A DNA stretch of 64,000 nt from positions 20,233,029-20,297,028 of the forward strand of contig NC_092646.1 in assembly GCF_039555335.1 (NCBI RefSeq). The letters run 5' to 3'. The position numbers and the translations under genes were made by a program. Under the pieces are notes generated by a model, which was not told the DNA's origin, did no database searches, and saw only the letters and a list, made by a program, of their open reading frames with translations. This document shows positions 11,559 to 36,806 of this stretch, piece by piece (positions within the stretch are counted from its first letter, which is position 1; each line of letters begins with the position of its first letter). This DNA comes from Amphiura filiformis (Eukaryota; Echinodermata; Ophiuroidea; Amphilepidida; Amphiuridae).

Positions 11559-11586
11559 ATATGAACTTACAAAGTGTTCGTAAAAA

Positions 11587-12912
11587 TTGCCTGCTTTTCT
11601 CTGCTTCATCAACGAAGAAGATCCTGACATTATTGTAGGGACAGAATCGTGGCTGAACCCGAATATAAATTCTGGTGAAATATTCCCTCCAAACTTCCAT
11701 ATTTTTCGCAAAGACCGCAATAGTGACTCCCATGGCGGAGTATTCATAGCTGTGAATGATAGATTTATCGCACAAGATGAATCAGATTTGGATCAAGAAA
11801 ATTGTGAAATGAAATGGTGTAGTATCCATGTAAAAGGTGTCGCTCCTGTCTTCATTGGAGCCTTTTACAGATCCCAAACAACTGATAATGACTATATGAG
11901 ACTTCTTGATGACTCACTTCAAAAAATTCCAAAAAATGCCTCAATTTGGCTGCTAGGGGACTTTAATTTGCCCGATGTCAACTGGATTACCAACAGCTTC
12001 ATCCCATGTGGTAGATATCCTGGGCCCAGTAAGCTCATGATTGATATAGCGCTGGATCATGGTCTCCACCAAATTGTTCAGAAACCAACCAGAGGAAAAA
12101 GTATTCTTGATTTGTGCTTCACAAATGATGTTTCATTTGTCAAAGATGTCCAAGTGATTGACGGTTTAAGCGACCATGACACAGTTATAGTTTCTGCATT
12201 GGTTCGTCCTAAGCTTGTGCATAAACCCAGGCGCAAAGTCTACATATACGCTAAGGGAGAGTATGATAAGATTTGTGAAGAATTAGATGCCTTCAATGCT
12301 ACCTTGACTGATGATCATGTAAATAAATCTGACATTAATGAAATCTGGTCAGATTTTACTAGAATTGTCCAAAAATCCATGGATAGCCACATTCCATCAA
12401 AAATGAGCACTTCAAAAGTCAGACTCCCGTGGATGAATGATAGGATGAGGAAAATGTGTAATAAGAAACGCAAAATTTATGACAAAGCCCGCAAAACTGG
12501 TGATTTTGCTACGTGGGACAAATACAAAGACATTAGACGCAAAAATGACAGAGAATTGAGGAAACTTCAAAGGAAATACATCCGCGATGTTTGTGATACC
12601 CTGGAAAGCAACAATACAAAACCTTTTTGGAGATATATAAAATCTCTCCGTAGGGAGGTTTTTGGTGTTGGTCCATTAGAACATCTGGGCCGCATAGCTT
12701 CCAGTGCCAAAGACAAAGCCGAGGCTTTGAATGCCCAATTTTGCTCTGTTTTCACGGATGAAAACATCCAAAACATTCCCAACTTCACTCAAAGTACTGT
12801 TCCTGATATGCCTGATATAATTATTACTACCCCAGGGATAGAAAAGCTTTTGAAAAACCTCAATGTTCAAAAAAAGCAACTGGACCTGATAACATTCCTG
12901 CCAAGATTCTGA
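11587..12912 (+). pseudogene. LINE ORF2, endonuclease part (frameshifted)
   Basis: APE/EEP-family endonuclease that would nick target DNA for target-primed reverse transcription. Visible catalytic motifs: GTESWL (metal-binding Glu), WLLGDFNLPDVNW (Asp/Asn) and GLSDHDTV (Asp-His). The expected start (KIVNMNLQSVRKN) lies in another frame at 11545-11585, so at least two indels separate it from ORF1. The 3' end drifts out of frame in an A-run near 12870; the true continuation (TGPDNIPAKILKECA) is one frame away. Confidence 0.85.
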
Positions 12913-14351
12913 AAGAATGTGCTTCTTCAATTGCTCCAATTTTGCAAAAGATATTTCAAAAATCTTTATCTTCTGGTGCATTACCACAAGACTGGCGTGA
13001 TGCAAATGTTTCACCAATTTACAAAAAGGGCAATAGATCATCACCTTCTAATTATCGCCCAGTTTCCCTCACAAGTATCGTCAGTAAACAATTGGAGCAT
13101 ATCATTGTTAGCAACATAATGGCTCATTTTGACAAGTACTCAATTATCAGTGATAAGCAACATGGTTTTAGACGAGGAAGATCGTGTGAGACTCAGTTAT
13201 CGGGTCTTGTTGATGACCTAGCTCAAGTGCTAAATGTCCGCGGCCAAATAGACCTGTGCATCATGGACTTTAGTAAGGCATTTGATGTTGTGCCCCATCG
13301 CCGTCTGCTTGCTAAACTTCACCACCTCGGGATTAGAAATAATATGCAGAATTGGATCCAAGCGTTCCTTTCCAATAGGACCCAGAGAGTCATCATTGAT
13401 AGTGAACACTCTGCTAAATCTCCTGTTGTGTCGGGAGTTCCTCAAGGCACAGTTTTGGGGCCTCTGTTATTCCTCGCTTATATAAACGATCTCCCGGACA
13501 ACGTCACATCTCAAGTTAGGATGTTTGCGGATGATTTGATCTTATACAGGCAAATTGACTCTATCAATGATTGTCACACCCTTCAAGATGACATAAATTC
13601 CCTCTGCAACTGGGAAGCCATGTGGCAGATGAAATTTAATAAAGCGAAGTGCTTTATCATGAGGATGTCTCATAAGAAAACCCCCTTGGATCATCAATAT
13701 TTTATGGGTGATTCGCTGCTTCAGGAAGTAAATCAACACCCATATCTGGGTGTTGAACTCTCAAATGATCTTGCGTGGACAAAGCACATTCACCAAACTG
13801 TCACTAAGGCAAACAAAATTCTTGGCCTCATCAAGAGAAACTTGTGGAACAGTTCATCTAAAACAAAGGAAATTGCCTATAAAACACTAGTTAGACCCAA
13901 GCTGGATTATGCTAGTCCAATTTGGGACCCCTACCATAAGACATTAAAAGACAGCCTTGAAAAAGTACAAAGGCGTGCTGCGAGATTTGTAAAAAGTGAT
14001 TACGGGCGCACAAGCAGTGTAACAAACATGCTTCAAGAACTTGGGTGGGACACCCTGGAAACTCGTAGAACTCATGCTAAACTCATCACCATCTTCAAGG
14101 AAACTCATGGACTCATCCCAAGCAATATCAGCCATCTCCAGGTCGGCAATTTCCCTACCAGTACTATATGTACCCGTTCATCACATAATTTGAATTACAA
14201 TATCCCCCAATCCAACAAAGACTGTTACAGAAAATCTCTTTATCCTTGCACCATCCCTCAATGGAACTCTCTCCCTCCTGAGACAAAAACAGCAGCTTCA
14301 GTTCAGTGCTTCAAGACTATGCTGCAGGACGCCACCAGTAACACCAAGTAA
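12876..14351 (+). pseudogene. LINE ORF2, reverse transcriptase part
   Basis: Continues the endonuclease part after the frameshift near 12870. RT motifs in order: DWRDANVSPIYKKGN, NYRPVSLTSIVSKQLEHII, KQHGFRRGRSCETQL, LCIMDFSKAFDVVPH, SGVPQGTVLGPLLF and the catalytic MFADDLILYR. A thumb/C-terminal region ends in FKTMLQD. All catalytic aspartates are intact; the element is dead because of the upstream frameshifts. Confidence 0.9.
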
Positions 14352-15290: not shown

Positions 15291-15888
15291 CATTCCAGAA
15301 AAATACAGCACCACCGGTAATTTTTTTGGATTCAAAAATATTATCCTGTTTTGCAAATGAAACATAGCTAAATCCTAATTCTAAAAGTTAAATTTTAATA
15401 TCATTTGCAATTTGAGGGAAAATGATCCAAAAACATGCAATTTTGCTGTTTTCTTACAATTGTAGTCACAAAATGTAAGACTTGGCACAAATTTAATCAT
15501 GCAAAATCTTGGGTAGTATAGGGTAAGAGTTAGCTCAAAATTTTCATGTTATAAGGGCCTATATGTTATATTTGCTAATTGGAATTGGTCATGAAAAAGA
15601 TGGGAAAATGTGTTTCCAAGTTAGAATGCATATCTTCAAATTAGTTTTTGTTCAAATCTTTGGGATGCAGGGCTTGATTGTCACAGAATATGAACTTAAA
15701 AGGTCGAAAAACTTTTAAAATGCGTGTTTTGGCCCTTATTTCCAAAAAATGACCAAATATTTAAATTTTACTTTCATTGCCAGTTAGGACTAATTAAGGA
15801 ATTTAGCTATGTTTCATTTAGCAAAACAGGGTAGTATTTTTAATCCAAAAAAATATTAGTGCTGCTGTGCTGTATTTTTCTGCAATGG
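15290..15888. mobile_element. Foldback repeat with GAAAAATACAGCAC arms
   Basis: Left arm about 15292-15420 and right arm about 15770-15888 are diverged reverse complements, sharing CAGAAAAATACAGCAC, TTTTTTTGGATT and GAAACATAGCTAAAT. Non-coding; probably an old MITE. Confidence 0.6.
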
Positions 15889-15921
15889 GGACTAGACCCA
15901 TGATCCATTTTGTCCCTCAAT

Positions 15922-17541
15922 CAGAGGCGGATTTAAGGAAAAGGGCCCTGTCAGCAAAATATCCCGGGGGCCCTAAAAGAGTTGAAATTTTTGTCGGGAG
16001 GAGGAGGGTAAGAAAACAATTTGGCCAGTGAGCATTAGTTCGGCCTAATGTTATTAAAGAGATATGTGCGCGTAGTGCGCGAATATTCATTCCATTTCAT
16101 ACTATACCGTATTTGAAGTAAAAGTTGATGTATATTTGGTAAATTTCGCGCGAAGCGCGCGATAATTTGCAATTTTCACACTATTCTATATCCAAATCGA
16201 GGGTTTATCAGATTTGTGAGTGTTTAAAAGGTACGGTAGGTACTAAAGAACAAGGAATATTTCCTTTTATGTTTTTGCTTGATGGTCAAGAAGCAAACAA
16301 AATCCCAGATTAAGGTCCAGAATCAGTTTAAATATCATAATCTGACCTCAAGGAATAGGAAGCCAATACGTTAGTAGGCCTACGCGTGAATTTTGACATT
16401 ATGGGGGTGGAATTTTTTTTAAATCCAGGACCTTTTGGCAACAAAACAAATTTATGGTAAAAATGCGCGAAAAATTTTGCCATTTTGAAACTAAACTTTT
16501 AAAACATGGTGCAAAATGGGGATTTATCCCCCATTCCCATTATACTCCACCGGATCTATATACGCCTATGTAGCTTAGGGCCCTGTCAGGGCTGGATTTG
16601 CCTTTTGGGGGCCCTGGCCAAAATTTGAGGGCCCCAGACTCACTGTGAGGAAGGCATAGGCCTATACACTCAAGTGGCTTAGTTTAATTTGACTTACGTA
16701 TAAGATATTGTGGCGGAAGCATAACAATTTAGAGGGAGCCGAACATTATTTTGTTTTCCATTTTACTATGACATTTGCGGGTGAAGCACGGAAAAAAATT
16801 CAGGTCTATTTTAGCCCAAAATGAAGGTGAATTTTGCTATATACAGGGCCAGAGCGCGCTTCGCGAGGGCAAAATTTTACCATATTTTGGCCCAAAACAT
16901 GGTGTTTAGGTCTAAAAAGGAAGACGCACAAGGCCATTTTGGGGGCCCCACATTTTGGGGGCCTATAATATTTGACCTTTGGAGCTCATGTACCCATGAA
17001 TAGTTATTGAGAAACGAATGGCCCTTTGTATTGATATTTGGGCCCCCGGGAACTCATGAGCTTGGATATCTGGGCCAATATTGGCAAAATTCATATCTAA
17101 GGGGAAAGACCTTTAGGCCCAAGTGTATCACGGTCCACATACGGGGTCCTTTGTAGTTTTAGAGCCAGCTTTGATGATACCCTTATATCTAACATCTATC
17201 ATACTATAGATTACCTATACTTGTATTTTGAGAATGTATAATGCTCTAGTACCAATTCGTAGTCCTGATTCTATAAAAATTGTATTCCCAAATATTAAAT
17301 TTGGGCCCCTGGGGCCCTTGACCTTTGACCTCTTGCTGGGGCCAAAACGGGCAAAATGAAACTTTTCAAAACTCATAATGCTGGCATAAATAGAATAAAT
17401 AGAATATAACCTTTTCAGTACTATTTTCCCCACCGCACCTTTGAACCTTGCAGAAAACAATTACAGCAAAAAAAAAAAAAAAAAGCAGGGGGGCCCTTTG
17501 GCAAAAATAACAGGGGGCCTGACAGCTTAAATCCGCCACTG
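15922..17541 (+). mobile_element. Non-autonomous hAT-like element A (CAGWGGCGGATTTAAG ends)
   Basis: Left terminus CAGAGGCGGATTTAAG, right terminus (reversed) CAGTGGCGGATTTAAG. The interior has CAGGGGGCC-type subterminal motifs and several copies of GCGCGAAGCGCGC-like palindromes. No transposase ORF. It has no target duplication of its own across the element. Confidence 0.8.
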
Positions 17542-17547
17542 TCATCA

Positions 17548-19080
17548 TCTATACAACGTGTGTTAGGCAATGTCGTTTTTGGAACATTATTATATTTTAT
17601 GTTTTTTGCTTGTTATCTTCTTAAAACAGCTTTTAGGGCCTATACAAAGAAATAATTAATACCTCCAGGGGAATCTGTTAAAAGCATCTTTTCATATAAA
17701 TATTTTTCTTTCTTTATGTTTAATGTTTTTGTAATGATTATTATTTTGACTATCTACTGGAGATAGCAATTACGGCGGGTTTATGATTTCTTGCGCACTG
17801 AATCATTATTATTTTTTGTTTTGTTTTTTTGTTTTAGTTCTTATTTTTTCCCTTCGTGTTCCTGATAATCTCTGCTATACAAGTGTTGTTTTACATTTTG
17901 GTCAGCTTCGGCATTCTATTTTGTTTTAAATTTGTGCAGCAGCCGGGCGCCGGGCGCGTTTTAGGATTTTTTCGCGATATCTACTGAATATAGCATTTAG
18001 AATCTCATCCCGATTCATTACATCTTTCTACTCTAGAAGTAATGTTTTATATTCTTTTCTCTACATTTTCACTACATCATGTAGCGGCGAATGTTTTTCT
18101 TTTTAATACATCAGTCCCCATCAGAAAGTTTAAAGCGATATTACAGACTCATCACTTTCCGCATCTGTGTGTTTCTCTGTTTTTACCTCTTTTTTGTCCC
18201 TTTTACGGCGGGTTTATTATTAATTTCTTGCGCACTGAATCACTATTTTTGGGGTTTCTTTTCTTTTCTTTTTTTGTTTTTTGTTTTTGTTTTGTTTCTT
18301 ATTTTTTTCCTCCATGTTCCTGATAATCTCTGCTATATAAGTGCCGTTTTAAATTTTGGTCAGCTTCGTGATTCTAACATTTCTTTATAGCTTTGCATTC
18401 CGCCAATGCCGATTTTTTTTTCAAAGCGTAATGCAGTTTTGCGTTTCGCGCCGTACTGAATCATCGTCTGCAACGTGTGTTAGGCCTAGGCAATGTTTTT
18501 TTGGAACATTATTAATATTATATTTTATGTTTTTTGCTTGCTATCTTCTGAAAACAGCATTTAGGGCCTACGAAGAAATAATTAATACTTCCAGGGGAAT
18601 CTGTTAAAAACATCTTTTCATATAAATTTTTATCTTTCTTTATTTTTAATGTTTTTTAATGATTATTATTATTTTGACTATCTACTGGAGATAGCAATTA
18701 CGGCGGGTTTATGATTTTTTGCGCACTGAATCATTATTATTTTTTGTTTTGTTTTTGTTTTGTTTTTTGTTTTAGTTCACATTTTTTCTTCGTGTTCCTG
18801 ATAATCTCTGCTATACAAGTGTTGTTTTAAATTTTGGTCAGCTTCGGCATTCTATTTGTTTAAATTTGTGCATCGCAGCCGGGCGCGTTTTAGGATTTGT
18901 TCGTGATATCTACTGAAGATAGCATTTAGAATCTCATCCCGATTCATTGCATCTTTCTACTCTAGAAGTAATGTTTTACATTATTTTCTCTACATTTTCA
19001 CTTCATCATGTAGCGGCGAATTTTTTCATTCTAATACATCAGTCCCTATCAGAAAGTTTAAAGCGATATTACAGACTCAG
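17548..19080 (+). repeat. Large tandem repeat, about 0.9-kb unit, with an internal partial copy
   Basis: Segments 17550-18150 and 18466-19080 are near-identical (offset about 917). A partial copy at about 18200-18400 repeats the part starting TTACGGCGGGTTTAT. Units share AACGTGTGTTAGGC, CTATCTACTGGAGATAGC, CCTGATAATCTCTGCTATA and TCATGTAGCGGCGAAT. Small ORFs inside are rich in Phe and Leu from T-runs and look spurious. Confidence 0.75.
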
Positions 19081-19855
19081 TCTTGGAGGATGAGGTCTTG
19101 TACCCAAGACATGGAAGGTCATTATATGAATGTAGAAATATTGGGGTTAAGGAATTGTGCCCTGTCAGATGGGGATGTTTAAGATGCTAACGATTAGGTC
19201 TCATTATATTGGATTTACTGAACCTTTTCATAAGGTGCTATAAACTGAAAAACGATTTTTCAGGGATGATCGGAGATTAAAATGTTTTGAAGCCGACACG
19301 TACTCCGCACTGTTATCACTAATATGCCATCATACACATTGGCTTTGGAAGATTTTCAACATGGGGGGGTATGTATGTGCGGAGTCAGAAAATTTTGCAA
19401 AATATAGGTCACAAACACCCATTTTTCCTCTATTTATCACAACTTTTTAACTTCACCTATAGGATTATTGGGGAGGGGCCTGAAAGGTATTCCAGCCCCG
19501 CAACAAAAATTATTGAGGGGCTGAGCCCCCAAGCCCCCCGGTTCATAAGCCTTTGCTAAAAGTCAGACAATTTGTGTTTTCATCACTAACAGGGTGAAGG
19601 TACATGGAGGCAAAACAATTGTTTCCAGGGTTGGAGGGAAATGAAACCTGGATTTTTCTCTTTTTCTTTTTCCTTTTTTTGGCCCCAGTTTCAGAACAAA
19701 AATCACTGAAAATTTCTAAAATTAGTCAATACATTTTCGGTTGTTTCCCTTATTCTACCTCCCTCTCACTTTCTAGGATCAGTTCATTTTTTCCTTCAAT
19801 TTTCATATTAAATTTGATCGCAACATCCTATAAAGAACTCTATAAAAATAATGAT
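19080..19855. other. No gene seen
   Basis: AT-rich sequence with no supported exon, RNA or clear inverted repeat. Confidence 0.4.
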
Positions 19856-19952
19856 CAATGCAATTTTGCCAAAGCTCACTACCACTCCACTACCATTCGC
19901 AAAATTCTACGAATGACCAAATCGCAACAGAATAAATAGTTACTAACCTTAA
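19855..19952 (-). mobile_element. Fragment of a TTAA-target MITE (CCTTAAGGTTAGTAACT family)
   Basis: Matches the ends of the copies at 42851-43215 and 46376-46750, including CAATTTTGCCAAAGCTCACT and AAATCGCAACA. Its terminal TTAA is the same TTAA that starts the next element. Confidence 0.6.
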
Positions 19953-20621
19953 GGGATCTAAAATGAGCGTTTATTGCGTTTCGACAGTATTTTTTGTGGG
20001 ACATGAGAGCACCTCAGACCTATCGAATTGCATTCTGAATACGAAGCATGTCTTTCTGATATCAAATAATTTTCATTTTTGAAAATCACAATATAATACA
20101 AATTTTATGACAAATTATAAAATTTGATATTTTTCACATTTTTGATATATAACAGTCCTCGAAGTAAATTATATAAATCTAATGACATATTCTTAAAGTG
20201 TATGTAGCAGGGAGGAAAAGCCGACGGTCAATTGAAAATTTTGACCTGTCATATTGAAGATATGGATTTTTTTCCCAAAAAGACCTATTTTTTTTTGTGT
20301 TTTGGGAAAAAAAATCCATATCTTCAAGACGAAAGGTCAAAATTTTCAATTGATCGTCGGCTTTTCATCCCACCTACATAGGCCTACACTTTAAGTATAA
20401 ATCATCAGATTTATAAAGTTTACTTCAAGTACTGTTAAATATCAAAAATATCAATTTTTAATGATTTGCCATAAAATGTGTATTAAATTGCGAATTTCAA
20501 AAATCAAAATTATTTGATATCAGAATGACATTCTTCGTATTCAGAATGTAATTCGATATGTCTGATGTGCTCTAATGTCCCACAATAAATACTGTCCAAA
20601 CGTTCATACCCCAGCCCTTAA
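19949..20621. mobile_element. Foldback MITE, TTAAGGGATC family, copy 1
   Basis: TTAA at both ends (19949-19952, 20618-20621). The two halves are long inverted repeats meeting at an AT-rich centre near 20290. Conserved blocks include GACAGTATTTTTTGTGGGAC, TATCGAATTGCATTCTGAAT and GCCGACG(G/A)TCAATTGAAAA. Non-autonomous. Confidence 0.8.
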
Positions 20622-21184
20622 GTTGTTTTACTTTAGTAGAATGTTAATGCTGAATGTTAATCACTTTCAAGTGTGGTATTAAGTTCGTTATCAAATTGGG
20701 CATTCACGAAATGCCATTAGTTCAAATCTGCCTCCAGAAAGCATGATGCGTGAATAAAGCACAAAAAGAAATCCCCAGTTGAAGTGATATTGATTGACTC
20801 ATTTACTATTCCAACTTCATGCATACTGTCCTTATGCTCCTGTACCATATGATGCAGGACCATGGTGCTCCCCATATGGTCCTGGACCATATTATCGGGC
20901 CAAAATGGCACAAAAGCGCGCTGTACTGGTCCACTTCAGATACAAGTAGGCCCCTACCACGGCCACTACATAATAGAATCTATATAGGCGTAACATGCTT
21001 TCATATATAGGCCTACATTCGATGAATAATCGATGTAGCGACAATCTCAGTTAATACATGTAGAGCCACAAACAAGGCATTCCAGTATTTCAAACATAAT
21101 TTTTTTTTTATCAAAAAAGAAAGTTTTCATTTGGAAATATTCTTTTGAACAGTGTAATTGAGAGGTCATTTTGGGTAGAGTCAA

Positions 21185-21490
21185 CTTAAGGGCTCCTCGC
21201 AGTAAACTTTATAAATCTAATGATATGTAATTAAAGTGTATGTAGCTGGGATGAAAAGCCGACGATCAATTTAAAATTTTGACCTTTCATCCCAGCTACA
21301 TACACTTTAAGTACATATCTGTAGATTCAAGTTTACTTCGGGGACATGTTAAATATTAAAAAGTTTAAAAATATCAAATTTTAATAATTTGTCATAGAAT
21401 TTGTATTATATCACCAATTTAAAAAAAATCAAAAATTATTTTATATCAGATGGACATTCCTCATATTCAGAATGTATTTCGATACTCTCC
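21185..21490. mobile_element. Internally deleted copy of the TTAAGGGATC foldback family
   Basis: Contains the paired GTATGTAGCTGGGATGAAAA / TTTCATCCCAGCTACATAC core and one outer arm to TCAGAATGTATTTCGATA. Confidence 0.65.
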
Positions 21491-21953
21491 GCTCCCACAG
21501 AGTTCTCGAGAAAAAGAGGCGTGGTCCCATGCTGGTTCTGTCTATTATCTTAGATTGGGGCCTACATTTAAAACAATGTATTTTCAAATTTTTAGTTATA
21601 ATGTTGCTCCAGCGGTTTTGATATGACATGTATGAGAAGCAAAAACGTGTATCGTTTAAATCGTTATGTTTTAGTAAAAACGGTTACTATGGCCAAAGTT
21701 CTAGGGCTAGTGCCCACTAAACAAAAAAAAAAAAAATATATCGGGTAATGCGTAAAATGCGAGATTTCTGATACCAAAATGGTCGCGTACTCCTACCGCC
21801 AGTTAAAACTCTTTTTGGAGTATTTATCATGTTTATGAGGAGAACCAAGCAAATACCAAGTACTTTAATTTCTCGATCAATCGAAATTCCAAGTTTGGCA
21901 TACCGCGGCGAACTAAATGATCCACACTGTCATATCAGTTGTATTGCTTTCAA

Positions 21954-22315
21954 TTAAGGGTACTACACCTGTGGTAAATTTCAGACTATTTTTGCATTTT
22001 CTCAAAAATAATAACACACTGGTAACAAAAGTTATGTATATTATTGGGGCAAGGAATCCAATTACTACACTGATATTTCAGTGATTCAAGACAAGCGGTT
22101 CGTTATTTATGATAAGAAATGAGGTACATCCTCATTGTACCTTATTTCTTATCATAAATAACGAACCGCTTGTCTTGGGTCAATGAAATTCCAGTGTAGT
22201 AATTGGATTCTTTGCCCCTATAATATACATAACTTTTGTTACCACTGTGTTATTAGTTTTTGAGAAATATGCAAAAATAGACACAAATTTATCGAGGGGT
22301 GTAGTACCCCCTTAA
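21954..22315. mobile_element. Foldback MITE with TTAA target site (GGGGGTACTACACCCC family), copy 2
   Basis: TTAA at 21954 and 22312; arms pair over about 170 bp with a perfect centre (GATAAGAAATGAGGTAC region). Same family as 8410-8776. Confidence 0.75.
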
Positions 22316-25300
22316 CTGAAAGTAAGTGGGGACTTTCTTTATTGATAATATATTTTGGGCAAATAGTTTGATACTTTCAATGATTCTCTATCGATGGCAC
22401 ACATCATTCAGATCAGATCAATCAATAGCAATACTGGGAAATAAAATGTGACTGAGCTTGCTTCTGTTTGAAAGCAAGTTTGGTATTATCGAGCCTGGTC
22501 TGCTGTGTAACCAAGCAAAGCCAACTACAAAAGTGTTTGGGTATGCGGATTCGCACCACAGGATTCGCACCATGCATTCAGGGACCGTCTGTAATTCAAT
22601 TGAATTTGATGCCCATGCCTGACCATAAATTGCTGGTGTGAAGTGCAATGATCGATTCCAGAACCATTCATATTATACCGTTTTATTGTATTATCATGGG
22701 ACATTCACCATGGGGCCTCCTGAAGGACATACTTTTGAATTTGAATGCATTTTGAAATCATTAATAGAGTATGACATGAAAACAAAGTATCAATTTTCAT
22801 ATTAAAAATACAAAATATCTTGAATTTTTTATTTTATTTTTTTTTTTTAGGTCAACCATGAATGATCCTAGCATCTAGGTCTAGGTCCAGGGACACTCCA
22901 ACACCGGAAAAAATAAACTTTAAAAAAATTTTTTTTTTTTTAAATAGTTTTTTTTGTTTTGAAATTCGAGTATAATCCCACCCCCAATTGTGAAAAATGT
23001 TCACATAAAAAACGGGTGGGACTATACTCGGACCAATACGGTACTTTATAATATAAATCAATCACACCTGGGCATTTTAATGGAGTTTAAAAAAAAACCA
23101 TCCCTAGATGACTCTGCGATAAACATGTGATTTTTTTGTTGTTGCAATTTGACGAAAATTACTTCAGATTGAACTTGGCAAACTGGTGGGTCTACGAAAT
23201 AGTCCGGATACATCAAGAAAATGTCAAAATTGTAATTAAAGTGAGTCTGTAAATATAGTATCCCGAGCACAGCAAAGGTCGAATATGATTATTATTCTAT
23301 TCACTTTTATCTTTATAGACCATATTTTTGTTTACTTATTGTAGGTTTACATCATACATGCATGAAATCTCATGAATGGCTCAATGAACTGTGATAGTTT
23401 ATAGGAATTCGATAACTTATTCCGTAATATATTATTCCAATCCTAAGAACTTGTGAAAGTCTATATAGTTTGATCCAGTGAGATTGATCGTACTTTCTGG
23501 TGGACAAAGAAATATTCATGCTCATTAGTACGTGTTTATCGCTCGTCGCTAAATACTGGAGTATAAAACAAGCACAAAGGGGGAGTAAAGTGGGTGTGAC
23601 CAATCAGCATTCAGAACGTGCTGTTCTCCATTTAGTTTTAAGTGAAATCATACACTCCTAGAAGTACACCCTCTGTTGTCGAGCTCGTTCGACACGAATA
23701 GAGGGCGAAAACATTTTTTAGTCACTTTAAGGTGATACTACCCTACTTTGAGTTTAAAAAATTACTTTTCGTGTTGACACCACGGATTATATATTCGTAC
23801 TTTTTGGTAAATATATAAGCAAGTTGTGATTAGAACTTTAAATGTGGTGCTAAAGTGTAAGCCTTTCCTCACATCTGATGAGTTGTAAAGGTGGCCAGGT
23901 TTAGGGTTCTTGGCTGTAAAACGTCCCCTAGCATCACAACTCATTATTAAGGAAATCAAAGTCAGAATGATTTGTGATAATTTTTTTCCTCCCGAGTCAT
24001 TATTATAGGGGGCGCTTTTACACAATTGTAGGTAGTAACACAGGCTGTGTCCAAAACAGACAACAGGCTACGCTACACTAGTCTTGTTACAGTCTCGGTC
24101 CCATGGCTTATGCTCCCCTTTTTCGTCACCAAGGCTACGGTTTCATAGGTTTGTTAGAATTGTAATTATGCAAATGAAGTCACATATTTCCATCATGTTG
24201 CTATAGGGGGCCTATTGCTCTTGAATCCAAATAAAAAAACAGGGAAATATGTTCCAACTGACCAGCAGGGAACCAAAGGAAGGAGCCAAAAGGATACAAT
24301 CAGCGTGTTTATAGTGAATATACTGAGTTTACCGTATACGATAATCCTTGTATATATACCGAAACTCTGTATAGCGAGACGCACAAATTATATACATTTT
24401 GTAACAACTAACATTATCGTACATTTGCAATGACCGAGGTCATATGGGGAATGTGTAAATATTGTGGCGCGAACTGTAAACAGCTCAGTATGATCATGGC
24501 GGCGATGATAACTCTTGGGGGTGAGAAGCGTTCCGAATGTCCAGCGCGTATCTTACGCGTCATGAAGAAGCTACTACTTCCGGTAATACAGCGAACAAGT
24601 ACCCTCCTGTGTGTAGTGCAAATATCTCGCGCAATATCCATTGGTTCAGAAGGAGTGATGTGCGGTACATACAAATACGGCCGCTAGCGGCTAGTGTTAG
24701 CGAGTTTCCGAATAATTTCTGACCAGATAGAAATTATACCGCATGTAGGCCTACCGCACATCTGCTCCCACTATACGCTGAAAGTCACACTAGCAATGGG
24801 AAAATATGACACAAGATCCGATGGAGGAATAACACAAAATGTATAAACAAAGTTTTAACCCCGACGTTTCGAAAAGACGCAATTTTTCTATTTCAAGCAA
24901 TAAAATTAGAGACCTGCCCTTGGCTGCTCTCAATATTATAGTCAGAGAGTTGATATTCTTGAGAGGGCACTCTATTCACGTGGTTTCTTTTCCAACGCTA
25001 AAAGATCACGAATTTTGGTGGTTTGCAAATGAAAAGTGTCCGCACTATCGATTGATTACGTAACTGTTATGAATAATGTATTAGGTTTTCAATGCAATCG
25101 CCTCGACCCATCAATACATATTATCTGTATTTATCAAAGTACTTGGAATAGCAATCTGGTGAGTTCACTGAACTACGCCCTAATACTGATGGAGTTTTAA
25201 TGGCGTTTAATGGCGCTAATCCTCTCCATACACAGATGAACAAATTCAATAGGAGAAGGTCAACACATATGACCTCCTATATGACATGTTATATGAGATG

Positions 25301-26369
25301 TACAACAACCTGAATATCATAAAGATCAGTGTTCGTTTGTGCATATGAACTGCATATTTACAATACTAAATATTAGTCGTTATATATTATGCCAAATATT
25401 GGTATTATGACAACACGGTATATGCATTGTATATAAAACAACTAATAGATCCTGCTATCATGGCGTCAGGTCATTGGTTCATCATATCCCGTATGTTTCT
25501 TAAAATTCATTCATATTTGAGACAAATTTCTGTGCCCATTTTATAGGCGTACAGGTGGATCCGGTTTTTTTGGTCATTTTCATTTCTTTTTGATGAAAGA
25601 ATTAAGGTTTTCCACTACACGGAGGCCACTATGTGATACTAATTTAATGCTATATTTATAAATTGAATACGTGTTCCCGATTGGCTCTATAGCGATTTCA
25701 CAGAAAAGGTATTTCTAGTACAATGCAGCGTCGGACTCTAGCTGAGAGCGTAGTAGCCTAAGTCATGGACTCCAAGAAAGGCTCTCCATACACAAATGAA
25801 CAAACACAAAGGAAGGTAGTCTCCTCCGTGACCAGCTTGATTTCGATGGAGCGAAAACAAATTGGCTGCAGAGGAGACGGGTAATTTTGCCATGCAAATG
25901 AGGTGAGTGTCATCCCCCTGATTATAGTGAAGACCAGCTCTTATCATAAAATGCAAGGAATAAAAAGCTGCATTGATCAAACATTGATCAAGCAGCAGAA
26001 CATAATAGAAATCTAAATAACAGTGGAGGCTTGAGTGGGTTAGGACAGGTGTGAAAACCCATAACCGTGATAACAGCAAGCAAAGTATTAGGTCATGCGT
26101 CTTGAATTCGCCATCCAAAAAAGGTGGCGATGTTAACGTTTTTCCAAAGTCGACTCAAATTAAATGATGATATCTATGCCAAGCAAGAAGTTATTGTCAT
26201 GCTTTTGATTGCACTTTCAACCCTGTAAAAAGAAATTCTTTAGCCTTTTTAATGCTGACACCGTGCTTCATAGAATTCAGAATGGGCAGGGTGGCGGAGG
26301 TGGGGGATGTGGAGGTGGGGGATGTGGTACACACAAGCTATATGGGATTGATAATTTTAGTGTATAATC
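22316..26369. other. About 4 kb without a recognised gene
   Basis: I found no exon chain. A small hairpin is at 22966-23031 (CGAGTATAATCCCACCC against GGGTGGGACTATACTCG). 24440-24690 is somewhat richer in CpG and holds ATGGCGGCG, but its ORFs resemble no family I know. The segment around 25770-26110 also shows nothing convincing. Confidence 0.4.
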
Positions 26370-26768
26370 CAGTAGCGTAGCCAGCGGGGGGGCAGGGGGG
26401 GGGGGCAGAGGGCCCCCCAGACCAAAAAATGAAAGAAAAAAGTGCCCCTATGACAAAAAAAAAAATAAAAGAGAAAATCAGGAGGGCAAAGGAAAAGAAA
26501 AGGGGCATGGAGCCCTTTTCTACCGAAATTCAGTCCGAAAATTCAAATTTTTTCGCGCTATGCTCGCACATTGTAAAGATAAAGCCATTTCCATCCAGAT
26601 AATGGGCGAAAAAAGTGTAAAATACCAAATTTTTGCGCACATCGTCCCAATAAAGCCTTTTTGTCTCTATGTATGGTATGATGCAACTGTAATTTTTTTC
26701 GTCTGTGCCCCTGAAATTTTATTTTGCCCCCCCGACCAAAAAAAGCTGGCTACGCCACTGGTATAATC
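26362..26768 (+). mobile_element. hAT-like MITE with 8-bp target duplication
   Basis: Element 26370-26760 (391 bp). Ends CAGTAGCGTAGCCAGC and (reversed) CAGTGGCGTAGCCAGC. Perfect target duplication GTATAATC at 26362-26369 and 26761-26768. The interior has G/C runs next to the ends. Non-coding. Confidence 0.88.
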
Positions 26769-28560
26769 TGCTTCTGTAAAGGCTGTAAATTGGATTTTTA
26801 CTCTATTAAGCATCTAAAAGACTAATGACCTTACAGCTAAACAATTCTACTAATTGTTTTAATCATTTATGATTGGTTTAGTCTAGAAAATACAAACTTT
26901 TTCATACAAAACTACCCATTTTCATATTAAACACTGTAGTAAGTAATGCAGATTCAAAATTCAAAATCTAAAAGTTACTGTAAAATTTTAATTACTTGTC
27001 CTATCATAGTCAAAGTAAAGATTTTCTGAAGGGACGAGGAATCTAAATATGGACTTATTTTTTCTGTATGGGTTAGGGGCAAAATGTTTCAGTTCAAAAT
27101 ATGTTGAATTGTAAAAAATGCTAACATACTTCGGAACACCCTGTATTCCGAGATTACTAACCAGCTGTGATTTTGGTTTCTTCCAAAGTCAGTAGGCTCC
27201 TCCTATCCTCTAACTAAATGAATGTTCACGTTTACTTTACTGCAAGTTAGTAATAAGCAATGCATTAACTAACACATTTTTTCATGGCAATGAAATGATG
27301 CCACTTGCACCCACATCTCATATGCACAGTTTATCCCTTATCCTGTGTCTTGAATAGCTATATGTGGTTAACCAGTGTGGTTAAGAGGCTAGGAAATAAT
27401 TCCTAATATCTCATATCCTAGTTTGTATGCCTTTATCTAATCTTGCCACACGTGACAACTTAATATTTAGCCTTTCACCCGGGAAAGAGTCTGTTAAGTG
27501 GAGGAATTTGTTAGCCTTTTTTATAAACATTTTTGCAATTGGCTTATAGCCATCACATGCTGACAATACACATAACTGATTGGTTAATAAAAACTACCAT
27601 TACATGGTCAGGCCTAATCACAAAGTAAACATATCATCTGTAATTAGAAAACTATCATAATGCAGCAGGCGATTTACTTCAGAAAAAGTTTAATATAATT
27701 ACATTGCACAAAACTAAGTCCATTATCTATAGTTAATTGAATGTTTATTGACTCTTGTAATAACCCAGTTAATTGAATGTTTATTGACTCTTGTAATAAC
27801 CCATGTGTATAAACCTGTATAATATTGGTGTTCATATAAAAGCTGGACCATGACCCTGACATAAAAATTCCTTTAAAAAAGGAACGGGGCGCCCAATGTG
27901 AGCTTGGTCGTGATGTGGTGAATTTCATGGTGTTTAGATTTGGCATTAATTATCTCTTGCAAACCAAACCCGGTGACACCTCATTATAGAAATCAGACCT
28001 GTTGATAGGTTGTAAGAGGGGATAGCCTTTTCCAGGCATAAATTGGGCCATATATAAAGAAAGTTTTGCTACTTTGCAACGCAATAAAAAACTAAATGCA
28101 AAAATGAGGTTTTTAAAAATATTGTTTTCCAGAGTCAAGACGCAGGTATCATTATTAAGTCTCATATCACTTATTTATTGTCGAATAAGTGCAGAGTATG
28201 TTAGATATGAATATTAAATGTTAGACCAAAGTAGCTCAAAGTACATGTACTATACACCTGATCCGTGAACTTGTCTTTTTTAAAGACAAATTCTTGTTTA
28301 TCCCATTTTTGTTCCACTCTATATAACTTGAAAGTCACCCTGTATATAATGAGTTGAAATGTGTAAACTGGAATTGCTTATGCCTCCAGCTTTCCAAACA
28401 ATGTATACTTTTGCTAGTTTAGGGTTGATTATTGTGGAGATAATCTAATTCGAAAGTTGATTGGTGTAAAAATTCATTATATTTGTGATGTACGCTACGG
28501 GTGGCGAAGTCAAGACACACGGCCATTATGGAGAGCCGGCCAAATGAGAAAAAATGAGAC
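26769..28560. other. No gene; left arm of a split inverted duplication
   Basis: 27670-27850 and 28085-28290 match 30825-32960 in reverse orientation (see findings). 27749-27803 holds a 37-bp direct duplication containing TGAATGTTTATTGACTCTTG. 27505-27585 is a diverged direct copy of 29420-29505. Confidence 0.5.
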
Positions 28561-28564
28561 TGTT

Positions 28565-29230
28565 TTAAGGGATCTGGAATGAGCGTTTTGAGCGTTTCGA
28601 CAGTATTTTTTAGGGGACATAAGAGCACCTCAGACGTATCGAATTGCATTCTGAATACGAAGCATGTATATCTGATATCAAATAATTTTCATTTTTGAAA
28701 ATCACGATATAATACAAATTTTATGACAAATTATAAAAATTGATATTTTTCAAAATTTTGATATATAACAGTCCTCGAAGTAAATTTTATAAATCTAATG
28801 ATATATTCTTAAAGTGTATGTAGCTGGGAGGAAAAGCCGACGATCAATTGAAAATGTTGACCTTTCATATTGAAGATAAGGATTTTTTTCTCAAAAAGCC
28901 CTAATTTTTTTTGGTGTTTTGGGAAAAAAAATCCATATCTTCAATACGAAAGGTCAAATTTTCAATTGATCGTCGGCTTTTCATCCCACCTACATACACT
29001 TTAAGTATAAATCATCAGATTTATAAAGTTTACTTCGAGTACTGTTAAATATCAAAATATCAATTTTAATGATTTGCCATAAAATGTGTATTACATTGCA
29101 AAATTTAAAAAATCAAAATTATTTGATATCAGAAGGACATTCTCCGTATTCAGAATGCAATTCGATATATCTGATGTGCTCTAATGTCCCACAATAAATA
29201 CTGTCCAAACGTTCATACCCCACCCCTTAA
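28565..29230. mobile_element. Foldback MITE, TTAAGGGATC family, copy 2
   Basis: TTAA at 28565-28568 and 29227-29230; halves pair around 28910. Closely similar to 19949-20621. Confidence 0.8.
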
Positions 29231-32200
29231 AAGCACTAAAAACATATAGATGGCCAAACAGGTCACAAAGAGGGGACGTCGACAAGGGTAGCGAAAAGGG
29301 GACTATCATTTTCTTCGGAAGGGGGTTGGGGGTAGGGTTCCAAATATACTGGGGTCATAAATTTTGGAAAGAAAACTAGGGGGATATTTACAAAATGAAG
29401 GGAGCCACAAGCCGGGACTTTTTTAAGGCTTTTTTCTAAGCATGTTTGCAGTTGGCTACCTGCAGCCATCACATGATTATAATAATATGCTTTATACTGA
29501 TTGGTGAGCAGGGTTATTACAATTGTTTACTTAGTGATGCGGTCCCTGAGCATAGGAAAAATACACTGAATATTTCAAAGAGCCTGTTTACTGCCAGTGC
29601 TCATGATGCACAGTGTCATCGACCCTATATCTTCATGGCAGAAATCGCCATGGTAGGTTGAATCCACAGCCACGATTGGCCATTTGGTTCAGACCTTTGA
29701 AGCTCTTTGAGACGAATAATTAGTCGAGGACATGACTAAGGCTACTCACAATAGCCGTGTAATTGATCTTGGTTGTGCGTGAATAAGCTTATACCCCATT
29801 GAAGTCAATGGTCATCGACTTTTATACTGCCTAGTAGTAGTGAGTGCAGCTGTACTACACGATGTAGTCCATACAGGACCAACGCAATATAAAAAAAAAT
29901 TAAGAGTTTTGGTCCGATTTTGAGTTCAAAGCGCACGGCCAATTTTCAAAGCGCATTCTAGCGACCATCATATCTGTTCAACACGTATTTTCAAGTGTAT
30001 GAGACCACATCTGGTTTCTTGAGAAAAATTCATTTACGGGAGATATTCATCATTTTCTAACCCGCTATCCGAAAATTTTCGTCTGATATCAAAATCGTGC
30101 ATAGCAATTCACGTGTATCGATCCCGTGTATTCATTTTAGTGTCTCTGCTACACCAAATAATTATTAGCCAGGCGGTGTCGGTGTGTGATGCCCCATTGG
30201 TCTTTTTTAAAGACAACTTCTTGTTATATTTACGTGTATTGCCAAAGTATAATCCTAGGGGCGATACTCCAATTCAGTACAGAAGGGCGTGGTCAATTTG
30301 CACTTACCCCAACACTTTGGGGTGGCCTATAAGTGGGACACATGGGGTAGGGGTAAATTTGACACATAACCTATATTTATGATAGGCCTATTACATTAAA
30401 CATGTTAAAAGAACATATTTTACAGCAGTGTACAATAATGTATATTTATATTGGAGCATTTGGGCATTATTGAGGCAGATTTTTTTCTTGGTACACAATC
30501 CCCCCCCACACGATTTGCGATTTTCAGCCCAAAAATCAATAATCAAGTCATTCTAGGCGTGTTCAGGGGGTAGGCCTAACCCTATCGGTTTAGGATATGG
30601 ATTAAAACTCTAATAGGCCTACATACAATGTCAAATATCGTCCCCCCATTATGCGAAAATTTCGACATTCAACACTTGAAGGGGCGCAAAATCGATGCTG
30701 ATTAGGCCACCCTAAGGGTGGCGCCCGGGCACGTTGCCCCCCCCAAGTTACGCCACTGCCATCAAACAAGATAAGCTTTAAGACAAATACTGCACTACCA
30801 TATTGAATTAGCACAATAGTCACGGATCAGGTGTATGAGACTATTATACCTGTCTATTATTAGTCTCAGATAGTACTTTGAGCTACTTTGGTCTAACATA
30901 TCTAACCTACTCTGCACTTTAATACGACAATAAATCAGTGATATATGAGGCTTAATAATGATATCTGCGTCTTGACTCTGGAAAACAATTTTTTTTAAAC
31001 CTCATTTTGCATTTAGGTTTTTAAGCCACCTACGTACAGGAAACAAATTGGGCTATAACTACGAAGAAAATTGTATCAAAATGCCCACTTGTATGTTAGA
31101 CTATGCCATAGTCGAATTTTAATAAAAAATATGTTATTATTATTTAATCATGATGAACGCATTCCGTTGAACTCAAAATTATACTGATGTTTAAACATGT
31201 TAAGATTAAAGTGTTCAATAGGAAAATTGTCATAAAGAGTTTATATAATTAGATGATTAGTGACAATAAAAGTTATCGAATTCAACATATCTTACATAAT
31301 TAGAATGGCTCACTTCAATACTAAACAATTCTGATTTGGAATCTACCAGTTTATTGATCGCGAAAGCCCGAGTAAAAAATCCACTTGGGAAGCTAACAAA
31401 CAGAGGGAGTATGGTGACTGAAAATATCAGATGTGAAAATCTATCAATTGCACACAAATTAATACAAATCAGCGTTTTATGCTTAATGTAATAGCCAGAG
31501 TATGCAAAATGGGCAAGTGGACTACGGAGAAGTCTACTTGCATGTTGGCAATATCTTAAAGGCCCATTCAGTGATTTGCTCATCCGGACGATCATAAAAA
31601 TGATCAAAATTCAGATTTTGGTACCTTTGTCATTGTCATAGATGTGCTAACATAGCCTGCGAGGCCTGGTTCAGCCGAAAGCCGTGTATTAAGACAAAAT
31701 AAGACACTTTACACGAATCTGTAATTTAGGTACTCGTATTTGAAAGGGGCTTCAACTTCGTCAGGGCTGCTGTTTTCTTCGTTTTTTGCCAAATTTGTCA
31801 TTTCAAAAATACCTTGAATGACTTATCCTTCACTTTTAAGCAATTTTAATTTTTTTACACTTGCGCTGGGATCACTGAATGGGTGTTTAAATTTGTTCTA
31901 TATACAGATGCAAGATGCCTTATCACTATAAGTAAACAAATTACACAGTTAGTGTTCTTGCTAGCTTTTGACAGGGATATTTGTCTCATAGCCCTGGCCT
32001 ACAATAGCCCTGCTTTTATCATGTTTATGAACACCAATTATTATTTCGTAACAGAAAATATATTATACAGGTTTATACACACATTGCTGGGTTATTACAA
32101 GAGTCAATAAACATTCAATTAAAGCAATATTATAACATTTTCAAACAAAATAGATTAGCATTTCTTTGCCATAAAATGTTAGCTTTTACTGTCCGATATA

Positions 32201-32240
32201 TCCCCTTTTATTTTTGAGCCGAACAACTACTTCAAAGCAA
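29231..32240. other. About 3 kb without a gene; dispersed repeats
   Basis: 30650-30760 is a truncated element ending TTACGCCACTG and related to the foreign segment inside the 433-1398 element. 30825-31020 and 32025-32120 are the right arm of the inverted duplication. 31385-31480 resembles 8790-8890. No exon recognised. Confidence 0.45.
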
Positions 32241-32259
32241 AGAAAATTGGAATTTACTA

Positions 32260-32720
32260 CCAGCGCACATGTCGCCAATACGTACCACTCCTTCGGGCAT
32301 GTTGTGGTACGACCACAGAATTAGAGAAGGAGAACCGGGACTCCCTATACCGCCACGTACTATCGCGCCGTCAGCTATGGGGAGAAAATTGGGGGTATTC
32401 GGGTCCTTGCCGACGGTGCGCGGAGACGAACGAAAACAATTCTGCGTCTCATCTGTAGCGTCTTGGTACTCGCGTGCAGGTCGCATCAAGTGCGTCTCTC
32501 AAATGCGCCCATCATCTATGTCGCGCTTGCATGACAACGGATGCCTCGAGCGCATTCCGAGGGAAACCGAATACCCCCAATTTTTGCTCCATGTCTGTAT
32601 CAAGATGGCGGTCGAGTCCTGGTTCTCTGGTTTTAATTCTGTGGGTACGACCCTTTGTTGTGTATATCACCGTCGCGCACGCCGCGTAGTACTGTGTGTT
32701 ATGAACATCGTGTATGCGTT
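32260..32720. other. CpG-rich palindromic segment
   Basis: Unlike its AT-rich surroundings this stretch is rich in CpG. It has inverted arms: 32305-32350 (GTACGACCACAGAATTAGAG) pairs with about 32612-32653, and GGGGGTATTCGG near 32389 pairs with CCGAATACCCCC near 32568. ORFs of 152 and 92 codons overlap it on opposite strands but look like by-products of the composition. Possible foldback element or CpG island. Confidence 0.5.
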
Positions 32721-32959
32721 CGACTAACAATTCCATCGTAATAATAAAGGGCTGAATCAGCCTTTTATTCAAAATCTCTGATTTTGACAAAACTACAGCA
32801 CCTAGAGTCTTGATTTTTGCAGGCTAATAAAGTACAATTTAATCGTGTAAAAAAATGAATTAAAAAAATTCAGTGAGGGCGTCCTCCTCAGCAAATGTTA
32901 TAATATGGCTTTAACTATATGGACTTAGTTTTGTGCAATGTAGTTTTCTGAAGTAAATC

Positions 32960-34843
32960 CAGAGGCGGATTTAAGGAAAAGGGCCCTGTCAGCAAAATAT
33001 CCTGGGGGCCCATGAGTAAAGAGTTGAAATCAGAAGCGTGCCTGACTTTTTGTCGGGAGGGGATGTGCAAGAAAAAATTGACCAGTGAGCATTTGTTCGG
33101 CCCAATGTCATGAATGTTATGAGATTTGTGCTCGCAGTGCGCGAATATCATTCATTCCATTTCATACTATTTAAAATAATCTTGGTTTTGGGCGAAGCGC
33201 GCAAAATTTGTAATTTTACACCATTCTATAGTATACCCAAATGGAGGGTTTACCAAATTTGTGCGTGTTTAAACGGTACTTAAGAACAAAAAAATATTTC
33301 TTTTCTGTTTTTGCTTGATAGTCAAGAAGCAAGCAAAATCCCTGACATTATTTGTAATTAAGGTCCAGAATCAGTTTTATTATCATAATCTGACCTCAAG
33401 GAATAGGAAAAACTTGGGTGGCAAAAATGCCCCTTGCTCAGAAAAGAGTTAAGGTCATTCAGGGGTCCAATTTCAAAATTGATAAGATCATAATTATGTT
33501 ATAAACCACGCCAAAGTTTTGGTCTGATCATAACGATTCAGACAAAGTATGACTTGACCACAGAGGTCTACGATCCACGGTACATGTACATGTTCACGTA
33601 ATTTTGGATACCAGGATCGTATTCTGATATAGGGCCAACTCAGAACATTTTAGGCCCTGGGGCAGAGGGCCGCAAATGTTTAAACAAAGGGTCAAGGGGG
33701 CCTTTATAATATTTGACCTTTGGATCTCATGTACTCATGAATAGTTATCGAGAAACGGTTGGCTCTTTGATTTGACATTTGGGCCCCCGGCAGGGCCGGG
33801 TTACCTTTTTGGGGCCTTGGGCCAGGCCAAAATTTGGAGGCCCCCACGCACCGTGAGGAAGGCATGTGCACTCAAGTGGCCAAGTTTTTAGACTCTACTA
33901 GGACATTTGCGTGCGAAGCGCGCGAAACAATTGATTTTAGATTATTTTAGCCCAAATTGAAGCGGAATTTTGCTATATAACAGACCAGTGTGCGCGAAGC
34001 GCGCAAAATTTTGCATTGTTTGTACCCTATTTTGGCCAAAAACATGGTATTTTCGGCTAAAATGGAAGATGCACACTGCACAGGGCAATTTTGGGGCCCA
34101 CAAATTTGGGAGCTCTGGGCCGTATGGTAAATCCGGCCCTGGCCCCCGGGAACAGTTGATCATGATATCTGGGCCAAAATATGCAAAATTCACATCTAGG
34201 TGGAAAGGCCTTTAGGCCTAAGTGTATCACGGTCCACATGTGGGCGGGCATGTGGGTCCTTTGTAGTTTTAGAGCCAGCTTTAATGATACCCTTATATTT
34301 AATATTCGGGGCCCGGGGCCCATACTAGGTGACCTAGGCCCCTACTTGTAGGCCTATTTTGAGTATGTACCGTACCGGTATATATATCATGCTCTAGGAT
34401 TATCCATTTCTACAGTCTATGGATTATCAGTGTATACCAATTCGTAGTCCTGATTCTATAGAAACTGTATTAAATTTGGGCCCCTGGGGCCCTTGACATT
34501 TGACCTCTTGCTAGAGCCAAAACGGGCAAAATGAAACTTTTCGTGGTAGGGACTGGGTATGCCACATACCGGGCCTGATAATTTTTTTGATTATGTTTTA
34601 GGGCTACTATAGTCTTGACACTATTATGGAAGGCAGAGGAGAAGGAAAACCCACGAATTACAAATGCGGGCATTAATTGAATGGCCTCTTGCACGCACGG
34701 GCATAACTTTTTCATTTGAACCTTGCACAAAACAATTAAAGCAAAAAAAAAAAAAAAAAAAAAGCAGGGGGCCCTTGGATCAAAATAGCAGGGGGGGCCT
34801 TGTCAGCAACTGCTGACTTGCTGACAGCTTAAATCCGCCACTG
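32960..34843 (+). mobile_element. Non-autonomous hAT-like element B, sister of element A
   Basis: Left terminus CAGAGGCGGATTTAAG; right terminus ends TTAAATCCGCCACTG at 34843. Same interior order and orientation as 15922-17541, including the A-run near 34745 and the GGGCCCTTG...CAGGGGG subterminal block. Its left flank AGTAAATC is not repeated on the right; the right flank is CCCTCAAT. Confidence 0.8.
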
Positions 34844-35045
34844 CCCTCAATGCCACATAAAAATAAAGAAGAAGAACAGGAAGCAAACAAGTAGAAGGCA
34901 TAAGTAAGTTACAAGAAATGGAAAGGAAAAGAAATAGAAAAATATTAATAATTTATATAGATAACGCTGCTAGCTGAGCAAAAAAAAAGTGAAACTTATG
35001 GATGGATGGACCGCAACTTTTTATCATTGAAAGTAAAGTATTACA

Positions 35046-36806
35046 TCTATATAAATAAAAGGAAGGTTGCCCATCTTGTGCGCGAGTGTTCTCCGAATTG
35101 CCTAGACTTTCGGCTTTGATTTAGTGGTATAATGATCGGGTACATATTGCCATTTTTCCATCGGACATTCGTTTTTGCAAAAATTGATGGTAACTAAGAG
35201 AATAACATAAAAAACTGTCGTGTTGCTATGCAAAATCTCATGCAGTGGCATTGTGGGTAATAAGGACAGTGTGAACCGCGTAATAATATTTCCATTAAAA
35301 AACCATACGCAGAGCAACATTGCCCTGTTTTCTGCCAACTGCGAGGTGGCCAAGAAATGATTCAGGCTATCTAGATGCACAACATCGCGTACTTTAAAAA
35401 TGATCTTACGAGCTTTTCGCCCCTACGCAGAGCTACGCATCCCATTTTCCGCCACTGCACCGAAGTTGGCAGCCAAGAGATTAAGGCTACGTCGCGTGAA
35501 TTTTATTATTTATTCTAGGCCTATGAATCGTCGTTTAGTTTTACAGCCAAATTCATACGGGAGATTGAGGAATATACGGGGAACGCATTGCACTTTATTT
35601 GGTTGAAAACTGTCAAGACCAAGAATCGGCCTCAAAATCAGCGAAAATATGGTTAAAACCGGGGTTTTTCCCGGGATTTTTTGTTGTCAAAACTCAGTGG
35701 TAGCGCGTACCGTAACTAGGCCTAACTGGCAGCAGCGAGTTGGCGTTATTACGTCGGCGTACTGAGCAATGTGACGCGCACGTACGGGGTGCATAAAAGA
35801 AAAGAAAGGAAGACAAAACTGAAAAGATAGGCCTATGAATGGGTCGGGTTGTGGATTATATGCATGGTACTGGATTCGGTTAAGAGATTACCCGCCAAGA
35901 TGATAAAAATCGTGAGGATACGAGAGGAAAGAAGGAAGCTAAAAATGAATAAATAAATAAATAAATAAATAAATATTCATGTCAAATAAACTCCTGTAAA
36001 AACAAATAAAATAATGAGAATAGAATTAAATAGATACAATTCAAACGGGAAATCACGAGCTAAGCAGGAAATATGAAAAATGGGAATAAAATGTAGAAAA
36101 AAAGCCAAAACTAAAAGGAGAAATGTAAGAAATGGTAGATTTATAAAATAATGCATGGGAACGGGGCTCAATAAATGAATAACATGGAAACGGAAATCAC
36201 AAGCCAAGCATGGGAACAAAATAGACCTATGCAAAAGAAACTGAAGAGAAAGAAAGGAGCTAAATGAATTTTTAAAAAAAGAAGAAAAAAGGTACGGGTA
36301 GGCCTATTATAGGCCTACGGGTTATAGTTACAGTAACTAAATGAAACGGGAGCAAACTAAAGAGGGAAAGAAAGAAACTAATCAGGAAAATTAAGGGGAA
36401 AAAAGAAGTTAAAATTAGAAACTAATCAGGAAAAATAAAAAAAATAAATAACAACTGAAGGAAACGGGAAATCACAAGCTAAGCAGGTAATAAAAATGAA
36501 GCTATAAAGGGAAACGTATAAGAAAGGACAGATTTAAAAAATAATGGGAATGGGGTTAGGCCTAGATAGATAAATAACATGGCAAACGGAAAATCACAAG
36601 CTAAATAGCATTTTGTTTTAATGGAAACAAACTAGGCCCGTGCAGAAGAAACTGAAAAGAAAATGGAAATGCAAGAAGGGACAGGTTTAGAAAAATAAAA
36701 TTTACCATTCAGTGATTCTACCTTTTCAGTAATTCCTCCTGTTTTAGTGATCGCTCCCATTTACTCATCTAGCGGGGACCCGCGCGAAGCGCGGGTATCC
36801 CGCTAG
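35046..36806 (+). mobile_element. Non-autonomous Helitron-like element
   Basis: Starts TCTATATAAATAAAA at 35046 after an A. It ends with a GC-rich hairpin (CCCGCGCGAAGCGCGGG, 36779-36795) followed a few bases later by CTAG at 36803-36806, with T next. TC...hairpin...CTRR inserted between A and T, without target duplication, is the Helitron signature. No Rep/helicase is encoded. The interior has an AATA microsatellite (35945-35978). Confidence 0.75.

Follow-up and report, generated by a model that had tools for sequence, protein, structure and literature searches.

A probable fossil of hAT macrotransposition bounded by two sister elements in the genome of Amphiura filiformis

We analysed a stretch of 64,000 nucleotides (hereafter, the window) from the genome of the ophiuroid Amphiura filiformis (NCBI RefSeq assembly GCF_039555335.1, contig NC_092646.1, positions 20,233,029 to 20,297,028 of the forward strand). 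Coordinates below are those of the window, starting from 1. The window contains two related hAT-like elements, here called A and B, which lie in the same orientation, are separated by 15.4 kb, and bound an 18.9-kb block that is a candidate product of hAT macrotransposition. We describe the two elements and their outer flanks, then the flanks inside the block, and finally weigh how the block may have come about.

Elements A and B and the outer flanks of the block

The block and its bounding elements consist of the following features:

15914-15921, forward strand: left copy of the 8-bp target duplication of the putative composite, CCCTCAAT
15922-17541, forward strand: element A, hAT-like, 1620 bp, terminal repeats intact, apparently non-autonomous (the open reading frames (ORFs) scanned with Pfam included none of A itself)
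32960-34843, forward strand: element B, hAT-like, 1884 bp, terminal repeats intact, apparently non-autonomous
33791-34141, no strand assigned: hAT-like element nested inside B and flanked by an 8-bp duplication of its own, GCCCCCGG
34844-34851, forward strand: right copy of the 8-bp target duplication of the putative composite, CCCTCAAT

Both A and B start with CAGAGGCGGATTTAAGGAAAAGGG and end with CTGACAGCTTAAATCCGCCACTG. Their terminal inverted repeats (CAGAGGCGGATTTAAG versus CAGTGGCGGATTTAAG) are complementary at 15 of 16 bases, and are short and begin with CA(G); CAG ends are typical of hAT elements. The tips of the two elements are identical over 43 bp on the left and 23 bp on the right. 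The left tip is also the longest exact run that A and B share, all other runs being of 30 bp or less. Aligned with each other, A and B show mismatches of 9-19% in the five larger pieces of the alignment (10% and 16% in the longest two) and many indels, and a nested hAT-like sequence sits at differing positions in A and B, its copy in A being without a recognised right end. With interiors that differ in this way and a nested sequence at different places, B is no simple copy of A, and on the same grounds we rejected an origin of the two by segmental duplication of a single element. We did not find a third copy of the A/B family in the window, nor through searches with the tips: the 20-base tip pattern was absent from viral_contigs, and a 17-base tip had 17 exact matches in GTDB contigs, with none of the 17 loci matching the window at E 1e-3.

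The eight bases adjoining the elements read CCCTCAAT to the left of A, TCATCATC to its right, AGTAAATC to the left of B, and CCCTCAAT to its right. The two flanks of A agree at 4 of 8 bases and those of B at 1 of 8, and the sole complete match is that of A's left flank with B's right flank. The 8-bp target-site duplication of a hAT element is thus found around the composite (8 of 8 bases), outside a pair of linked, directly oriented family members whose outer ends are intact, and around neither A nor B singly. An earlier reading of the DNA, made from the letters alone (the sequence-only reading), had pointed out the two sisters and their shared outer flank, and this observation was confirmed, with exact coordinates.

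How often would such a match arise by chance? Two random 8-mers from the window agree with a frequency of 3.9e-5 (116 of 3,000,000 pairs), compared with 2.5e-5 for independent bases. A site matrix built from the 8 distinct hAT-like flank sites in the window, the matching CCCTCAAT site included, puts the chance of a match at 1.0e-4 to 2.9e-4. Since about four pairings of flanks would have been meaningful, the family-wise chance is approximately 1e-4 to 1e-3. The match is therefore improbable, as the sequence-only reading held, but its figure of about one in 65,000 was too strong. The 8-mer CCCTCAAT itself occurs four times on the forward strand of the window and once on the reverse strand.

The flanks of other hAT-like elements in the window served for comparison, among them an ordinary one within the block:

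26370-26760, no strand assigned: control, an ordinary hAT-like element within the block, flanked by a duplication of its own, GTATAATC

Seven hand-picked hAT-like elements with CAG...CTG ends were compared (14 flanks): the first element of a tandem duplication described below (C1), an element labelled D, A, the control at 26370-26760, B, the element nested in B, and an element at 38097-38257. Five of the seven have their own 8/8 duplication, the exceptions being A and B, in a set with some selection bias, as 26370-26760 and 38097-38257 came from a scan that demanded an 8-bp match. Among the 84 pairs of flanks that do not belong to the same element, A's left with B's right is the only 8/8 match, and the runner-up reaches 5/8. 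Excluded from the seven were C2 (1720-2685), which is the second copy of the tandem duplication and whose own flanks agree at 2/8, partnerless single tips (e.g., at 16587, 53963 and 57666), and a scan match at 32314-32643 that was judged not to be hAT-like.

The scan in question required CA...TG ends complementary at 11 or more of 14 bases, an exact 8-bp flank match, and a spacing of 80 bases to 25 kb. It returned 8 pairs in the window, versus 4 in total in twenty Markov-shuffled windows; the 8 include the pair of A's left and B's right end, two overlapping readings of C1/C2, and the 32314-32643 match. When the flank requirement was dropped, 16 end pairs with at least 15/16 complementary bases were found. 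Two of these have 8/8 flanks (26370-26760 and 38097-38257), two are A and B, and the remaining 12, all inside longer inverted repeats, agree at 0 to 5 of their flank bases.

Decay of ordinary duplications that A and B once had of their own was considered and rejected: it needs 4 changes in eight bases at A and 7 at B, though the tips of A and B (43 + 23 bases) are identical. We also looked within the window for a repeat spanning the outer junction, which would be an internal empty site, and saw none. The right flank of B (34844-35300) has no other match within the window, and the left flank of A (15500-15921) has three, at 15291-15373, 62958-63049 and 53892-53911 (20 bases), none of which reaches the junction.

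The inner flanks of A and B

If a transposase used the left end of A and the right end of B, macrotransposition predicts that the flanks left inside the block are half-sites, parted from the sequence that once completed them. Both inner flanks have a paralogue in the window that lacks the element, so that they can be compared:

17542-17549, forward strand: right flank of A, TCATCATC, the putative surviving half of A's original target duplication
17542-18151, forward strand: R1, repeat copy adjoining A's right end
18461-19079, forward strand: R2, sister copy without A
32911-32959, forward strand: G1, left flank of B, ending in the putative half-site AGTAAATC
27671-27736, reverse strand: G2, paralogue of G1 that lacks B
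32123-32910, no strand assigned: 788-bp terminal-inverted-repeat element in the same G1 copy, with a TTAA duplication

R1 and R2 are 89% identical over 634 columns, and their homology starts 0-2 bases from the right end of A (at 17542 according to MAFFT, at 17544 according to BLAST). The MAFFT register pairs TCATCATC with TCATCGTC at 18461-18468 in R2; the BLAST register is off by 3 bases because A's right flank is itself a TCA repeat. We did not find the DNA upstream of R2, GCGTTTCGCGCCGTACTGAA, anywhere else in the window within 5 mismatches, including to the left of A, and the 300 bases before R2 share only matches of 13 bp or less with the 1 kb left of A. The comparison suggests that A's right flank is a half-site, and that A was parted at its end from its original outer neighbour. 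R1 and R2 are copies of a repeat of approximately 610 bp (17542-19079), of which a third copy, partial and more diverged, lies between them at 18203-18398; no known family was identified for this repeat.

On the side of B, G1 and the reverse complement of G2 are identical at 48 of 49 positions, with two gaps, and the alignment reaches the final base before B. Its score is 36.0, the best among 1966 random pieces being 12.7. Past the base where B starts in G1, G2 runs on as GCCTGCTGCATTATGATAG, and the right side of B reads CCCTCAATGCCACATAA. A search of the window for GCCTGCTGCATTATGATAG found no other place within 4 mismatches, and two places at 5. Here too, the comparison suggests a half-site, with B parted at its end from its original outer neighbour. 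The 788-bp element at 32123-32910 provides a positive control in the same G1 copy: both flanks of its site, and the TTAA, match the G2 paralogue (about 27671-27826), which lacks this element. Since both sides match, the comparison with G2 does recover both halves of a site when they are present.

Both inner flanks of the block are thus consistent with half-sites, each read against one paralogue, G2 to the base and R2 within 2 bases. Two ends of homology that both fall at transposon ends would be hard to obtain by accident.

Origin of the block and competing explanations

Taken together, these data argue that the block at 15914-34851 is probably the fossil of a macrotransposition, which is a type of hAT alternative transposition. 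A would have inserted into the repeat array at TCATCATC, and B approximately 15 kb downstream of it, in the same orientation, at AGTAAATC. If A and B were already non-autonomous, they would have been mobilised in trans: a hAT transposase would have synapsed the left end of A with the right end of B, the two inner ends being ignored. The chromosome would then have been cut outside the A-B pair and the 18.9-kb unit pasted at a new target, where CCCTCAAT was duplicated on both outer sides. The donor locus would be expected to have TCATCATC and R2-like upstream DNA before R1, and G1 followed by AGTAAATC and G2-like DNA (GCCTGCTGC...). A re-replication composite insertion, a closely related hAT reaction, would have the same outer signature, and is distinguishable from macrotransposition only through the donor; we infer cut-and-paste movement, macrotransposition being the simplest history. 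A composite transposition that paired A's left end with B's right end had been proposed in the sequence-only reading. It is still the best reading, and is supported by the half-sites at both inner flanks and, further, by a separate hAT-type tandem duplication in the same window (see below).

Several points weigh against macrotransposition. No transposase domain was detected by Pfam in 20 ORFs of the window, 13 of them in the block. The evidence comes from one allele of one assembled window. Each half-site is read against a single paralogue, so that a natural end of the homology at that point is conceivable, and at A the position where homology begins has a 2-base uncertainty. Finally, a two-crossover exchange into an element already present at CCCTCAAT would give identical flanks.

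This last possibility leads to the alternative that survives best, although we regard it as unlikely. A lone element between two copies of CCCTCAAT would have received, by homologous recombination or gene conversion, a block bounded by its sisters, either as a looped-out circle or as a template for break repair, so that the present A and B would be hybrids. This route predicts an outer duplication and half-site inner flanks no different from those expected of macrotransposition. The sequence-only reading had dismissed the integration of a circle because the inner flanks are unlike, but this argument is unsound: it applies only to a circle that carries one ordinary insertion, and not to one looped out between two elements, which has a hybrid element whose flanks may differ. 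What stands against recombination is the divergence of A and B, as two exchanges would be needed despite mismatches of 9-19% and many indels, with no exact run longer than the 43 bp of the left tip.

A somewhat smaller probability is given to an assembly artefact, in which the assembler passed from a copy at the CCCTCAAT locus into the block by way of shared element sequence and came back by way of another copy. The identical tips of A and B would favour such errors. However, two matching wrong joins would be required, leading back to the same locus, and the exact runs between A and B do not exceed 43 bp, although longer runs could be shared by copies not seen here. There is also no N in the window, and the two copies of the tandem duplication C1/C2, with 5 mismatches but 15 gap runs, may hint at long-read data.

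Chance is the least probable explanation by our assessment: A and B would each have lost the outer neighbour by unrelated rearrangements and the 8-bp identity would be accidental, and even allowing for some selection bias, since the case was singled out while scanning for oddities, this requires a coincidence of about 4e-5 per pair (at most 3e-4 with site preference) besides two independent breaks, both at a transposon end.

Other features of the window and comparison with known systems

The tandem duplication lies at 433-3007, where exactly two tandem copies (C1 and C2) of a unit occur, each comprising a hAT-like element and a further 321 bp. The copies differ by 5 mismatches and 15 gap runs over 1278 aligned bases, with no mismatch and 2 gap runs in the 321-bp part, and the duplication is young. 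Each unit starts at the left end of the element; ATCATCGG stands on either side of the first element, but only to the right of the second. For maize hAT reversed-ends tandem duplications, two features have been published (PMC3744419): exactly two copies, each begun by the transposon, and an 8-bp duplication of which the first element has both copies and the second only one, the second feature being observed in 2 of 3 cases. The features at 433-3007 agree with these, and hAT reversed-ends transposition may be the origin of the duplication. The C1/C2 junction falls within a 4-bp microhomology, GGCA, and an origin driven by microhomology may be an alternative. The excess of gaps over mismatches between C1 and C2 could stem from indel errors of long reads that persist in the assembly.

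Pfam matches were found in 5 of the 20 scanned ORFs of the window, all of them outside the block and none a transposase. Two ORFs of B had no Pfam match. Of the 31 ORFs between A and B that are 75 or more amino acids long, 11 were scanned. No cargo gene was recognised in these 11, and the possibility that the DNA between A and B contains a large autonomous element with its transposase was rejected, as none of them had a Pfam match. Rfam and transfer RNA scans of the window gave no match. A fragment of a quinone oxidoreductase is encoded in the window (best PDB match 2j8z; Pfam ADH_zinc_N), and two reverse-transcriptase regions are present. A non-LTR (long terminal repeat) retrotransposon occupies 10689-14351, with an endonuclease, a reverse transcriptase, and a weak PHD-finger match just under the cut-off. 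Its first ORF carries GDINPNPGP, which we take to resemble a 2A motif; 2A-like motifs are linked with such retroelements. The content of the window itself suggested a eukaryote, probably an invertebrate, and this link aided the assignment. At 63315-63795, a 60-bp tandem unit is repeated in eight identical copies, with several reading frames open.

The A-B block would be a new natural example of a known phenomenon, in which non-autonomous elements relocate tens of kilobases of unrelated DNA. We consider the chances roughly even that two products of hAT alternative transposition, the macrotransposition at 15914-34851 and the reversed-ends tandem duplication at 433-3007, are present within one 35-kb stretch of an animal genome. 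If this were typical, paired non-autonomous hAT elements outside plants would continually give rise to relocated blocks and tandem duplications. Both types of event could be counted genome-wide by these flank signatures, and that of the block (an outer duplication common to two elements, no duplications of their own, and paralogous half-sites) could be scanned for in any assembled genome.

In bacterial composite transposons, a pair of insertion sequences moves the DNA that it encloses. The A-B block resembles these in that a pair of elements would have moved the intervening DNA, but the transposases and hosts differ. Among hAT elements, macrotransposition and reversed-ends transposition are documented, in the papers that we found, in transgenic rice and with maize Ac/Ds. 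Direct orientation of the macrotransposon pair, which is also that of A and B, is reportedly stated in the title of Huang and Dooner 2008. Our literature search, outside which most subscription papers lay, returned no report of natural hAT macrotransposition in an animal among the matches listed.

An animal case is the block movement proposed for a mosquito miniature inverted-repeat transposable element (MITE) of the P-element type, likewise of two nearby copies en bloc; these are P elements, not hAT, and the proposal is deduced from a MITE whose ends belong to two different subfamilies (PMC1562414). Composite insertions that arise from Ac reversed-ends transposition with re-replication likewise end in transposon termini, enclose flanking DNA and have an 8-bp duplication outside (PMC4270019). 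The interior of such a composite would be expected to consist of duplicated donor flanks with an internal junction. Nearest to the A-B block are the macrotransposons of maize Ac/Ds, a hAT system, in which two linked members also use their outer ends, carry the inner DNA, and have 8-bp duplications at the ends. A 10.3-kb macrotransposon was reinserted and a 28-kb one excised (PMC9910405), and another, bounded by a Ds on one side and an Ac on the other, moved as much as 100 kb (PMC3260210). Whereas the movement of Ac/Ds was followed genetically, the A-B block would be a fossil, recognised by its flanks, of the same reaction in an animal genome and in a different hAT-like family.

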